Source: a virus. Taken from it: a DNA stretch of 38,497 nt. A program made the translations under genes and the position numbers. Under the pieces are notes generated by a model. That model worked only from the letters and a program-made list of their open reading frames with translations. It had not been told where the DNA came from and searched no databases. The stretch spans positions 1-38,497 of the IMG/VR virus record IMGVR_UViG_3300017917_002302, one strand, 5' to 3'. How positions within the stretch are numbered: the stretch's first letter is position 1; each line of letters opens with the position of its first letter. Positions 29,683 through 37,769 of the stretch are shown piece after piece.

Positions 29683-31722
29683 TTACTTTATATCAAATCT
29701 ATCAAGCATCATAACTTTGTCCCATGCCTTAGCAAAGTCATTGACAAACTTTTGATTTGCATCATCTGCAGCATACACCTCTGAAATAGCACGTAATTCA
29801 GAATTAGATGCAACGATTAGATCAACACGAGGAACTCCTGCGGCTTGATCAGCATTAATGTAAGATAAAAGTTGAATCAAATAACTATTATCTAATTTAT
29901 CAGATTCTAGCACTCTCATTCCAGTAAGAAGAATTACCATTTCTACAGGATTTAAATTAAGCATGTTTGCTTTTTCAATTAATAATTTTTCTTCAGGAAC
30001 AAATACTGTAGGATTGACATAGTTTCTAAAGCCATCTGCAATAGGCTCAAGTGTTTTAAATGAGTCAACATCGGTTTGCTCTTGAGTTGCATCTCCACGA
30101 CCTGGAGTAAATGAAACCTTAACCTGTTCGCCAGAGGCCTTTTCAATTGCTGCACATCCTGCAAGAACAATTAAATCTGCAATTGAAATTAAATGTTCTT
30201 TTTGAATCTGCTCTAAAAATGAAATAACATCAGAAATTATTTCATGATTGTTTGACTGCCAAGTATTTTGTGGTCTCAGTCTAATTCGAGCACCGTTTGC
30301 ACCACCACGCTTATCTGTTTTGCGGAAGGTAGATGCAGAAGCCCATGCTGTATATACAAAATGATACATAGGAATATCAGAGGATTTGATTCTATTCTTA
30401 ATACTCTCTACATCGATATCCTTAGTAATTGATGCAGGAACTGGATCCTGCCAAATTAATTCTTCAGAAGGAACTTCTTTACCAAGATATCTAGCAATTG
30501 GACCCATGTCTCTGTGTGTTAGTTTGAACCAAGCACGAGCAAATTGATCAGAGAAATAATCAAAGTCTTCAAGGAATCTTCTTGAAATCTTTTCATATTC
30601 TGGATCAAATCTAAGAGCAAGGTCTGCAGTTGTCATAACTGGAGCATGGAATTTTCCTTCAATATGTGCATCTGGAACTAAATTAGCAGCAGATTCATCT
30701 GTAGGAATCCATTGTGTTGCACCAGCAGGAGACTTTGTTTGCTTCCAATCATACTTAAACAATAGTTTTAGATATGTATTATCCCACTTTGTTGGAGTTG
30801 GAGTCCATGCACCTTCAATACCACTTGTAATAGTATCTTCTGCATTACCCTTTCCAAATGAGTTTTTCCATCCAAGACCCATTTGCTCAATAGGCGCAGC
30901 CTCTGGCTCTGGTCCAACATGGGATGGATCTCCAGCACCATGTGCCTTACCAAATGCATGTCCACCTGCAATAAGTGCAACAGTCTCTTCATCATTCATA
31001 GCCATACGGGCAAAGGTTTCACGAATATCTCGTGCAGATAGGAGCGGATCTGGATTACCATTTGGTCCTTCAGGATTTACATAAATCAAGCCCATCTGCA
31101 CCGCAGCAAGAGGATTCTCTAACTCACGATCACCGCTATAACGATTGTCTGCAAGCCATTCCTTTTCGCTACCCCAATAAGTATCATCTGCTTCATAAAC
31201 ATCTTCACGACCTCCACCAAAACCGAAAGTCTTAAAGCCCATGTTTTCTAAAGCAACATTACCAGCAAGAATCATAAGGTCTGCCCATGAAATCTTCTTG
31301 CCATACTTCTTTTTAATTGGCCATAGAAGTCTACGAGCCTTATCTAAATTACCATTATCTGGCCATGAGTTTTGTGGAGCAAATCTGTGCAGACCTTCTC
31401 CTGCACCGCCACGACCATCAGTTGTTCTGTATGTACCTGCACTGTGCCAAGCCATACGAATAAAGAATGGACCATAATTACCATAGTCAGCAGGCCACCA
31501 ATCTTGCGAGGTAGTCATAACCTGCTCAATATCAGCCTTAAGAGTATCAAGATCTAGACTCTGAAACTCTTTAGCATAATCAAAATCAGGATCCATAGGG
31601 TCTGACTTTTCTGAATTTTTTCTTAAAGGAGATAGATCTAATTGGTTTGGCCACCAATCTTCGTTGTATGTTCCTTTAGTTGTTAAACTATTACCCGTGA
31701 ATGGGCACTTTTCTTCTGACAT
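29683..31722 (-). CDS. katG: catalase-peroxidase KatG
   Basis: 679 residues. Arg89, Trp92 and His93 of the active-site segment [12 protein letters not shown] are intact, as is DGRGGA; the [11 protein letters not shown] Tyr and the proximal His in [13 protein letters not shown] are present. The two-domain layout of bacterial KatG is visible, with the second half (from about 400) containing [31 protein letters not shown]. It destroys hydrogen peroxide (and is a broad peroxidase). Bacterial enzymes are typically 720-740 residues, so this is somewhat short; no frameshift is seen. It is an auxiliary gene for oxidative stress, set between tRNA-Thr and tRNA-Glu with its own promoter and ribosome site (AGAAGGA). 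Confidence 0.95.
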
Positions 31723-32352: not shown

Positions 32353-33957
32353 TTATTCCTCTCCGTCAAAATAGTTATTTTTTAAATATTGGTATAAAGA
32401 TGGTGCATTAAGTGCGTTATTTTTCCATTTTTCTTTTCTTGATTCCCAAATTAAATTTGCCTGATAAACTATATGACTTAAAGGTATTCCAGTGCTAAAA
32501 TATTCTGCATCTGCTCTAGCATTATTCATCATATTTAGATTCATTCCAGTTGCTATGTATGTTATTCCAGCAACACCCAAAGGATGTTCAAAATTAGTCA
32601 TATATCTTTCAACCAAGTCATTAAAAGAACTTTTAGTATTAGAAAAAGAATCTATCATTTCATTTTCTACATTTATGGTAGTTCCATTTTTAATACTTCT
32701 CCAATATTCTGTATCATCTCTATGAGATAATAAATAATGTAATGATACAAATTGAGCAAAACCTTTATATAGAGATTTAGTTGATTGATTATACATATTA
32801 CGATCAAACTGACTTATATCATTTCTTTGTAATATGTCTACTAACTTAAACAAAAATTCATGTACAGTATATAAGCCATTAGACTCCAAGGGTTCAATAA
32901 AACCAGCAGCCATACCTATTGCCACTACATTTTTTACAAATGTTCTCTCATGAATACCAATCTTAATATCAATATATCTAAATTTCAAATTATCTACTTC
33001 TTCTTTTGTTCTAGGTATTATCATTTTATCTGACATTAAATATTTTTTAAACTCATCTAACGCCTGTTCTTTTGTAATAAATTTTGTTGAATGAACATAC
33101 CCAGTTCCTAGTCTAGAATACAATGGTGTATTCCAACACCAACCATTCTCTATGGCTGTACAATTTGTATACGACTCCATTTCTTTTTCTTTATCTTTAT
33201 AAGGCACCTGGGCTGCCCAAGCGCCATTATTTGGAATTATATTTTGAAAAGAAATATAAGGTTCGTTTAAAGATTGGCCCAATAATAAACTTTTAAATCC
33301 TGTACAGTCTACAAATAAATCTGCATTAACAATCTCTCCATTATCTAATTCAAGATATTTAATTCCTATTTCATCATCTTTGATAACACTAGTAACGGTT
33401 GCTTCAATATGTTTTACTCCATTTGGTAAACATATAAAATCTTTAAGCCATCTACCAAATTTAACTGCATCGAAATGATAAGCAACATCTCTTTTAGGAT
33501 CAAAATTATCAAATTCATTATTAGTATTTGGAGAATATTTATTTTGTGCAAATAATGCTGATGCTGGAAATAAACAGTCTACAAAGTCAGTTACTGGTAT
33601 TTCTGGATGAAAATATTTTTTTACATGCCAATCATAAAATGGATTTCGATTTTTATCTACCATTGGATTTCCAAATGGATAATGAAATCCTCCAGAATCT
33701 TTTTTATAAAAGTCAGTAAACTTTATACTTAGTTTATACGTAGCATCTGTAGCCTTTAAAAAATCTTTATCTTTTAATCCTATGAAATTTGTCCAACGTT
33801 TAATATGAGACAAGGTAGATTCTCCAACACCAATAATTGGAACATCTTTAGATTCTATTACGCTTATTTCTTTATTTGGAAATGCTTTTATTAAAGTCGC
33901 TGCCGACATCCACCCAGCAGATCCACCACCCACAATTACTATTTTATTTATTGACAT
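32353..33957 (-). CDS. FAD-dependent tryptophan-halogenase-like protein
   Basis: 534 residues. IVIVGGGSAGWMSAAT is the GxGxxG FAD loop with the SAGW end typical of flavin-dependent halogenases; GVGESTLSHI, then LSIKFTDF (the expected catalytic Lys region), and WCWNTPL near residue 270, a variant of the WxWxIP motif that separates halogenases from monooxygenases. IEPLESNGLY matches the PLES(S/N) block. Length fits PrnA/RebH-type enzymes. Substrate is unknown: viral and phage relatives exist and some act on free indole or other compounds. Its neighbours are an SGNH hydrolase and oxygenases. The reductase partner is not seen. Confidence 0.85.
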   Translation of the reverse strand: MSINKIVIVGGGSAGWMSAATLIKAFPNKEISVIESKDVPIIGVGESTLSHIKRWTNFIGLKDKDFLKATDATYKLSIKFTDFYKKDSGGFHYPFGNPMVDKNRNPFYDWHVKKYFHPEIPVTDFVDCLFPASALFAQNKYSPNTNNEFDNFDPKRDVAYHFDAVKFGRWLKDFICLPNGVKHIEATVTSVIKDDEIGIKYLELDNGEIVNADLFVDCTGFKSLLLGQSLNEPYISFQNIIPNNGAWAAQVPYKDKEKEMESYTNCTAIENGWCWNTPLYSRLGTGYVHSTKFITKEQALDEFKKYLMSDKMIIPRTKEEVDNLKFRYIDIKIGIHERTFVKNVVAIGMAAGFIEPLESNGLYTVHEFLFKLVDILQRNDISQFDRNMYNQSTKSLYKGFAQFVSLHYLLSHRDDTEYWRSIKNGTTINVENEMIDSFSNTKSSFNDLVERYMTNFEHPLGVAGITYIATGMNLNMMNNARADAEYFSTGIPLSHIVYQANLIWESRKEKWKNNALNAPSLYQYLKNNYFDGEE

Positions 33958-36262: not shown

Positions 36263-36278
36263 CAATACCATTATGTTG

Positions 36279-36351
36279 CACCCTCGATTGGATTTGAACC
36301 AACGACAAACGGATTAGAAGTCCGCTACTCTATCCCCTGAGTTACGAGGGT
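36279..36351 (-). tRNA. tRNA-Arg (anticodon TCT)
   Basis: Minus strand: acceptor ACCCTCG/CGAGGGT, anticodon loop CTTCTAA, T-arm GTTGGTTCAAATCCAAT (with G-U closing pair). Reads AGA, the most AT-rich Arg codon. Its 5' end is directly next to the structured RNA candidate. No CCA. Confidence 0.92.
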
Positions 36352-36616
36352 AAGGCCTAACTTTATTATGCGTCCCAGTTAGGCTTGGGTATGTCTAGAA
36401 CATAAGTAGTATGATCGGCACAATGTGCTACAGGGACTGCTCTACGCAATTCTTATATACCAGCCACGAAGTCCGTTTTGACGGAAGAATCAACTGCTGG
36501 CTCTGTTCCCTAGACATTCGACTAAGTGGACATCTTCGACAAATGCTACCCACCGTCAACGCCACCGTAGGTTCGGGACAGTTGTACTTAACCTGAGTCG
36601 AATCTGGTTAAGCCTT
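36352..36616 (-). ncRNA. candidate structured RNA between tRNA-Met and tRNA-Arg
   Basis: A 265-nt segment without a plausible coding frame, GC-rich by hand count (114 G/C of 240 in 36361-36600) versus about 30 percent in nearby genes. Minus-strand 5' end AAGGCTTAAC (36616-36607) pairs with 3' end GTTAGGCCTT (36361-36352), 10 bp with one U-G wobble that is pairable only on the minus transcript. Nested inside: 8 bp between 36596-36603 and 36516-36523 (perfect), 8 bp between 36391-36398 and 36510-36517 (perfect), a TCCGT/ACGGA hairpin (36472-36485) and CCAGC/GCTGG (36460-36464/36496-36500). Its ends are 0-1 nt from the flanking tRNAs, so tRNA processing alone could release it. Not recognised as a known class. 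It might instead be two local 7-bp hairpins in competition with the closing stem. Confidence 0.6.
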
Positions 36617-36617
36617 G

Positions 36618-36691
36618 TAGAGCAGGTAGGACTTGAACCTACGATAACCGAATTATGAGTTCGGGGCCTTGACCAACTTGGCTACTGCTCC
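36618..36691 (-). tRNA. tRNA-Met (anticodon CAT)
   Basis: Minus strand: acceptor GGAGCAG/CTGCTCT (first pair G-U), D-arm GCCAAGTTGGTCAAGGC, anticodon stem CCGAA/TTCGG with loop CTCATAA and T-arm GTAGGTTCAAGTCCTAC. Lacks the three G-C pairs of initiators, so elongator Met or the AUA-reading Ile tRNA (after lysidine change) is likelier than initiator. No CCA encoded. Confidence 0.85.
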
Positions 36692-36702
36692 TTGAATATT
36701 TA

Positions 36703-36708
36703 ATTATA
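36703..36708 (-). promoter_or_regulatory. -10 element (TATAAT) of the Met-RNA-Arg transcript
   Basis: Minus-strand TATAAT about 11 nt before tRNA-Met. It is the only clear promoter upstream and probably drives tRNA-Met, the structured RNA and tRNA-Arg as one transcript. Confidence 0.5.
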
Positions 36709-36728
36709 GTGTATGGTGAGGATGATTG

Positions 36729-37769
36729 TCAAATACCATTATTCCAAACTAATCTTTTACCCTTTTTAATACAAGTAAACTTTAATCCAGCAATAGATTT
36801 ATTTGAATTAAATTTATTACACCGCTTACTGGCATATAGTTTTCTTGCTAAATCTTGATTCTTTTTTATCTGTGCAGCAAGTTTTTGTTCTTCCTTTTTC
36901 TTTGCTTTTTCTTTTAAAAACTCTTTAATTTTATCCTCATTGACAATTAATTCTGCCTCTTTTATCAAATTCATAAACTTAAAGGTAGGAGTTATTCCAG
37001 AAACTCCTCCCCCAATACCAAACGTGGCTTTATTATAGCAATTAGGTATTGCCCACGTAAATCCTCCAACAGGACCTATATAAAATCTAGTGTTTTCTGC
37101 TTCTACAAAGAACCCTGCTCCTGAGTCTCCATCACAGATAGAGCCACCATCTTTTGTATTTAAAATTCCATATTTTAAAACTGTTTGATTTAATGGAATA
37201 CTTTGAAAATTCTTTGAACGATACTCAAGAATTTCTTTTTCTCCAATTATACGAGTTGTCATTTTATGCGGACTAAAGTCAAATACTTTATTTATTTCTC
37301 TTTGAGAAGAATTTTGAAGACCATATCCAACCATGCGCACTGTAGTTTTATTTAAAATAAAAAACTCAATATCTTCTTTGGTAGCAATAACAACTTTATT
37401 ATGCATAGGAATGCTTTCCTGCAAAATTATTATTGCAAAATCATCGATACGAGTTTGATCGTTAAGATTTCTAGGAATATATGTAGGAGACATGATCACT
37501 TTTTTAACTTTATATGATCTTTCACCTGCCCTACTAACAATTCCTGGAGAATATACAATTCCATTTTTTTCCCAATAACTTAGCCCTCCAGTTGACTCAA
37601 TGACATGTGCTGCTGTAAAAATTATTCTGTCTGAATATAAAAACCCAGATGCTCCTCCTACCTTGACAGCATTAGGGTCACCAGTGGCATCTTGACCAAA
37701 CTCTACAGAATAGGAGGGCGAAGAGTTTAGTACAAGAGTTGATAAAACTATAAGTATGATTTTTTTCAT
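36729..37769 (-). CDS. secreted trypsin-like serine protease
   Basis: 346 residues. A signal peptide (KKIILIVLSTLVLN, cleavage near SYS-VEF) precedes a chymotrypsin-fold domain: His in IIFTAAHVI (about residue 55), Asp in RIDDFAIII (about 102), Ser in CDGDSGAGF (about 215). All three are present so it should be active outside the membrane. After residue 280 a Lys-rich helix leads to CNKFNSNKSIAGLKFTCIKKGKRLVWNNG, a short Cys-pair motif that I recall from exported proteins of small aquatic actinobacteria, so the gene may be host-derived. A TATAAT element lies about 30 nt upstream, with AGAAAG before ATG. Confidence 0.75.
   Translation of the reverse strand: MKKIILIVLSTLVLNSSPSYSVEFGQDATGDPNAVKVGGASGFLYSDRIIFTAAHVIESTGGLSYWEKNGIVYSPGIVSRAGERSYKVKKVIMSPTYIPRNLNDQTRIDDFAIIILQESIPMHNKVVIATKEDIEFFILNKTTVRMVGYGLQNSSQREINKVFDFSPHKMTTRIIGEKEILEYRSKNFQSIPLNQTVLKYGILNTKDGGSICDGDSGAGFFVEAENTRFYIGPVGGFTWAIPNCYNKATFGIGGGVSGITPTFKFMNLIKEAELIVNEDKIKEFLKEKAKKKEEQKLAAQIKKNQDLARKLYASKRCNKFNSNKSIAGLKFTCIKKGKRLVWNNGI

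Follow-up and report, generated by a model that had tools for sequence, protein, structure and literature searches.

A conserved structured RNA, 158-164 nt long, was identified directly behind phage tRNA genes and is represented by 12 distinct complete sequences in IMG/VR virus records. One of these lies in the stretch analysed here (an IMG/VR virus record of 38,497 bases, hereafter the window), on the minus strand (Table 1). Since its relatives keep their shape despite changed letters, the element is a real functional RNA family, and apparently one undescribed so far, full-text searches of an open-access library having turned up no description of it. On balance, it is probably a phage non-coding RNA of about 160 nt, which host tRNA-processing enzymes would cut out of tRNA transcripts and which would act in trans.

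The tRNA-Met/tRNA-Arg gap of the window, as delimited by ARAGORN, covers 265 nt of the minus strand (36352-36616). Its GC content (46.8%, compared with 34.2% for the window) agrees with the initial annotation, which had described a gap of this length that is GC-rich for its region. The folding energy of the gap (z-scores of -1.71 for the minus and -0.16 for the plus strand) is by itself weak evidence for a structured RNA. The same annotation had postulated such an RNA behind tRNA-Met, on the minus strand, and had proposed an Rfam search and a covariation analysis of homologues as checks. Both were performed and its expectations were borne out: Rfam searches of the window and the family members, at gathering and permissive thresholds, gave nothing credible inside the element, compensatory changes were found in the relatives, and the conserved, covarying RNA reads on the strand of the tRNAs. 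The tRNA/tmRNA models (ARAGORN and Rfam) also had no match inside the element. A protein-coding reading was rejected, as the open frames differ among members and their lengths change by single bases within the range given above.

The promoter ahead of tRNA-Met has a consensus match that was reached by 0/500 shuffles of the 70 nt upstream; a good promoter directly ahead of the tRNA was found only in the window and, at the same place, in L089 (11/12). Because the window terminase is closest, at up to 55.9% identity, to those of Stanwilliamsviridae phages infecting Streptomyces, the host of the window virus is probably an actinobacterium, presumably a freshwater (lake) one. The protein encoded further upstream (36729-37769, minus strand) is a trypsin-like protease with a probable signal peptide, whose relatives in other phages have long Ala/Glu/Lys-rich C-terminal repeats.

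With this upstream protein as a query no loci were found, while the tryptophan halogenase encoded at 32353-33957 gave 80 loci. Loci L002 and L004 carry the same tRNA-Met, followed by a homologue of the window gap sequence and then by an intact tRNA-Leu, and the strings conserved between them and the window were used for pattern scans of the viral collection (IMG/VR). One sequence type of the complete element is shared by L002, L004, L086, L091, L092 and L095 (some records contribute more than one of these loci), and further complete copies are present in L083/L093, L087/L088, L089, L096, L098, L099/L100, L102, L101, L103 and L114; L003 and L009/L097 contain the 3' part only. These relatives span about a dozen distinct virus lineages, and the window and the 11 distinct complete sequences form a 12-row alignment with a mean pairwise identity of 73% (minimum 61%). 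Against covariance model R1 the complete members score 140-180 bits and everything else at most 15.2 bits. The pattern matches L082, L084, L085, L090, L094, L105-L113, L115-L146 and L157-L161 were rejected by inspection as chance. The R1 search also revealed close relatives without the RNA (L007, L008 and L042), and it is therefore accessory and dispensable in some lineages. At L042:3664-3705, the site that holds the RNA in relatives, tRNA-Met is followed by AAGG and an apparent 3' part of tRNA-Arg, an arrangement resembling a deletion that took out the RNA along with most of the tRNA.

Outside these relatives, a BLAST search of the gap against phages returned only tRNA matches and chance matches of 25 nt, and a search of a second member against phage isolates and plasmids returned nothing. 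R1 found no copy in seven actinophage isolates and T4, and the element is absent from the Stanwilliamsviridae and Rhodococcus isolates with related terminases. One strict exact-match pattern, which would miss divergent cellular copies, gave a single match in bacterial genome contigs (L104); this was rejected as chance, as it lies in an apparent coding region with no tRNA nearby and has no R1 match.

Table 1. Features of the window at the tRNA-Met/tRNA-Arg locus, with positions counted along the whole stretch.
Feature	Position	Strand	Remarks
Sigma-70 promoter (predicted)	36703-36732	-	TTGACA-18-TATAAT; 12/12 consensus; 11 nt before tRNA-Met
tRNA-Met	36617-36691	-	ARAGORN and Rfam; directly upstream of the RNA element
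Conserved structured RNA element	36457-36616	-	160 nt; R1 169.9 bits; 11 distinct relatives; compensatory changes
P1 hairpin	36586-36613	-	arms 36606-36613 and 36586-36593; loop UUCGAC at 36597-36602
P2-closed domain	36503-36581	-	arms 36575-36581 (CUGUCCC) and 36503-36510 (GGGAACAG)
P2a	36513-36563	-	arms 36560-36563 and 36513-36516
P2b	36526-36553	-	arms 36550-36553 and 36526-36529
P2c hairpin	36531-36545	-	loop GUCGAA (36535-36540), which would kiss the P1 loop
P3 3' hairpin	36459-36501	-	arms 36496-36501 and 36459-36464; inner tip CCGU/ACGG
Decayed tRNA-Leu gene (putative)	36371-36437	-	outside the RNA; alignment to L002 spacer and tRNA-Leu(TAA)
tRNA-Arg	36278-36351	-	ARAGORN and Rfam; downstream

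RNAalifold predicted 37 pairs from the 12-row alignment, of which 18 change on both sides. On the alignment with the hairpin around GUCGA corrected by hand and the letters checked by script, five stems covary by compensatory changes, with 94-100% of the cells paired: P1 (outer 7 pairs, 84/84 cells, double changes in 4/7 pairs), P2a (48/48 cells, 2/4 pairs), P2b (45/48 cells, 2/4 pairs), P2c (47/48 cells, 4/4 pairs) and P3 (72/72 cells, 3/6 pairs). The arms of P2c occur as CAUU/GAUG, CACU/AGUG, CACC/GGUG, CCCA/UGGG, CCGU/ACGG and GCGU/ACGC. The P3 tip is paired in 48/48 cells, and P2 (82/84 cells) is nearly invariant, with double changes in one pair. When the 3' arms were reshuffled (n = 2000), P1, P2a, P2c and P3 were never matched and P2b was matched once; P2 and the P3 tip are too invariant for such reshuffles to discriminate. 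As the reshuffles ignore kinship among the members, the number and spread of the double changes are the stronger argument. Folding of single sequences gave P1 and P3 in all members and P2, whole or in part, in most of them.

In 12/12 members (72/72 cells), loop UUCGAC of P1 is complementary to that of P2c (GUCGAA or GUCGAG, i.e. GUCGAR). This complementarity suggests a kissing contact, which is unproven by covariation because both loops hardly vary. Since both loops contain the palindrome UCGA as a self-complementary core, loop-loop contacts between molecules, leading to oligomers, would be possible too.

The gap had initially been read as one RNA of 265 nt, sealed by a 10-bp stem between its two ends. 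A structured RNA does lie within the gap, but the length has to be corrected to the 160 nt of the conserved unit. The downstream remainder of the gap (36352-36456, 105 nt) is, as read from the alignment, mostly a decayed tRNA-Leu, because it aligns with the L002 spacer and tRNA-Leu better than 1000/1000 dinucleotide shuffles. The tRNA part alone is matched against the L002 tRNA-Leu by 20/1000 shuffles, the spacer supplying much of the signal. In the relic, which was not detected by ARAGORN or Rfam, GUCCCUG...CUGGGAC resembles the tRNA-Leu acceptor stem GCCCUUG...CAGGGGC and the T-arm has been lost. The 10-bp complementarity is real and part of the minimum-energy fold of the 265 nt, but it exists in the window only, where it would pair the RNA 5' end with bases outside the element and compete with the covarying P1, the bases of which it takes up. 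In other members, the first 10 nt pair downstream in runs of at most 5-7, and there is no room for a closing stem in L083/L093, L087, L103 and L114, because the next tRNA starts 2-8 nt past the element. The sealed 265-nt RNA, the 3' third of which is mainly the tRNA-Leu relic, is thus refuted as a family feature, and as an explanation of the element it has next to no likelihood. The associated idea of paired ends is unsupported as well, since the 5' end forms its own hairpin P1; the nested 8-bp stems as originally drawn are likewise unsupported, and a supposed alternative conformer (36587-36612) turned out to be the conserved hairpin P1. Nor do the relatives support a conformational switch, as they lack the alternative partner, which is confined to the window. 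A hairpin at 36355-36384 (stem GCCUAAC/GUUAGGC), which adjoins tRNA-Arg and has nearly the P1 stem sequence of the other members, gives rise to the 10-bp stem and may reflect chance or a partial duplication.

In all complete members except L101, the element starts right behind a tRNA, one base (C) past the discriminator. This tRNA is tRNA-Met in the window, L002, L083, L087, L089 and L103, tRNA-Asn in L096, L098, L099 and L102, and tRNA-Thr in L114, i.e. the element has swapped its tRNA partner while the linkage was kept. The downstream neighbours vary and comprise tRNA-Leu, -Arg, -Asp and -Trp as well as katG, ahpC (AhpC-type peroxiredoxin) and hsp20; the gene names were read by eye from protein starts, with a family search for the window KatG alone. 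In L103 and L114, the element spans the tRNA-tRNA gap to within 2 nt and its 3' end abuts a tRNA too. L101 has no tRNA ahead and no recognisable promoter, and carries a T-tract behind the P3 hairpin, about 8 nt beyond P3 and too far for the terminator-scan rule.

Some further features of these loci were recorded. The window encodes, at 29683-31722 (minus strand), a KatG-like catalase-peroxidase (Pfam peroxidase) that shares about 53% identity with bacterial KatG; it had few matches in the phage collection, and these seem to be bacterial sequences filed under phages. A further conserved RNA, about 90 nt long and without an Rfam match, occupies the tRNA-Arg/tRNA-Asn gap in L096 (5115-5204), L098 (10793-10882), L099, L100 and L102, just upstream of the tRNA preceding the main element, and in L103 it is located upstream of tRNA-Met. 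It looks pseudoknotted (CGCAG-ACUGG-CUGCG...CCAG), and L103 alters both sides of its stems.

A trans-acting, tRNA-processed RNA is favoured because the linkage to tRNAs outlasts the changes of partner, the downstream neighbour varies and L101 looks independent. Transcription would start at the promoter just ahead of tRNA-Met, and host tRNase Z (or another 3' nuclease) would cut past the tRNA and free the 5' end of the RNA. The 3' end would be set by RNase P at the next tRNA or by exonuclease trimming to P3, and in L101 possibly by termination behind P3. Release by tRNA-processing enzymes, already put forward for the 265-nt RNA, is the most economical reading for the shorter unit, as the 5' end abuts a tRNA in all members but L101; for the 3' end this direct contact applies to L103 and L114. 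The freed RNA would form the hairpins P1 and P3 and a long arm composed of P2, P2a, P2b and P2c, with the P1 and P2c loops probably kissing, and this compact molecule would act in trans in the infected cell. Its most likely target would be a host or phage protein or ribonucleoprotein, bound through the invariant joining segments. Varied downstream neighbours are expected of such an RNA, because it would not serve the next gene, and L101, with no tRNA and with its T-tract, fits an independent RNA.

The element might instead be a cis-regulatory leader (of the riboswitch or RNA-thermometer type) of the downstream auxiliary gene, perhaps connected with oxidative or heat stress. It stands directly ahead of katG in L096 and L098 and of ahpC in L099, L100 and L102, about 10 nt before the Shine-Dalgarno sequence in these five, as a leader would, and hsp20 follows about 75 nt past it in L089; moreover, the curated classification of manA RNA is cis-regulatory, and ibpA chaperones are among the genes reported for it (PMC2864571). 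However, a tRNA gene follows the element in most distinct members, the stand-alone L101 copy ends in a T-tract, and the katG of the window is located elsewhere, behind tRNA-Glu and without this RNA. The Shine-Dalgarno sequences show neither conserved pairing nor consistent masking, their predicted accessibility rising slightly in two cases and falling in two. A leader function is consequently regarded as rather unlikely.

Two other roles would depend on the tRNA ahead of the element. A compact fold could block 5'-3' decay (of the RNase J type) after tRNA excision and so shield the downstream RNA, in keeping with the location of the element at the very 5' end expected from tRNA processing and with the probable kissing-loop fold beside it. 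Many copies, however, have only a tRNA downstream, L101 lacks a preceding tRNA, and P3 and the joining segments are more strongly conserved in sequence than a roadblock requires; such protection appears improbable. An aid to maturation of the preceding tRNA, as a ribozyme or a 3'-processing guide, would also suit the strict association of the element with the 3' side of tRNAs, which carry only the first C of CCA, yet other tRNAs of the same phages are without the element, L007 and L008 keep tRNA-Met in its absence, L101 has no tRNA ahead, and no Rfam ribozyme family matches; this role is considered very improbable.

The element resembles a loose kind of phage RNAs (manA, T4 rnaC/rnaD and GOLLD/ROOL) and is a member of none of these families. 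The nearest kind is manA RNA (RF01745) of cyanophages, likewise a structured phage RNA, of about 200 nt, which starts with a hairpin and has a pseudoknot as well. In S-CREM1, manA runs from 1 nt behind tRNA-Leu up to tRNA-Asn, as the element does between tRNAs; in ACG-2014f, a manA-like match lies ahead of a gene for an Fe(II)-dependent oxygenase, like the element before auxiliary genes. This position, behind a tRNA and before a tRNA or an auxiliary gene, is common to both and is not Rfam-defining. In contrast, manA differs in sequence and fold, with a GACG loop in its 5' hairpin and a pseudoknot joining other segments. In cross-searches neither the R1 nor the manA model found the other, and RF01745 (threshold 55.2 bits) had no match even at E<=10 in 15 virus records, 12 of them with the element, while the positive control, S-CREM1, scored 96.6 bits. 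The S-CREM1 copy (L172, OP535465.1, 10215-10429) lies exactly between the two tRNAs, and the classification of manA as a cis-regulatory leader may need a second look.

The T4 RNAs rnaC and rnaD (species 1 and 2 stable RNAs; 139 and 119 nt) are phage RNAs of a tRNA cluster, discrete and of unknown function (PMC9697503, PMC3014915). rnaD starts 1 nt behind tRNA-Arg, the element being likewise directly 3' of a tRNA; R1 scored at most 5.8 bits in the T4 tRNA region with filters off and found nothing in the whole of T4. GOLLD and ROOL are RNAs of phages and prophages near tRNA islands, with unknown function, whose kissing loops join monomers into cages, and a GOLLD was first found downstream of tRNA-Met (PMC12286853). 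Both are far larger than the element, GOLLD often exceeding 800 nt, and their Rfam models had no match in the window or the members. The small abiF RNA (RF03085), annotated between tRNAs in S-CREM1, has a 37-nt model without a match to the element. Between tRNAs of L114 (3925-3960, minus strand) there is a sub-threshold abiF match (31.1 bits, cut-off 37).

The RNAs of phage tRNA arrays (T4 rnaC/rnaD, manA, GOLLD and ROOL) have long been without a known function, and the new compact family joins them with a fold that is well supported, a clear hypothesis on its processing and a few conserved contacts. Owing to its small size, probing, pull-down and structure solution should be easier than with GOLLD or ROOL. 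A bolder and distinctly doubtful proposal is that the family forms a new class of small trans-acting phage RNAs, cut from tRNA transcripts, which would self-assemble or dock via UUCGAC/GUCGAR and control the machinery or stress responses of the actinobacterial host; an equally doubtful analogy would then liken them, in a compact form, to the RNA-only assemblies of GOLLD and ROOL in style. If this were true, a self-assembling or docking RNA would be used by phages of abundant freshwater actinobacteria. Together with manA lying between tRNAs in S-CREM1, the family indicates that excision along with tRNAs may be a general route by which phages obtain mature non-coding RNAs.
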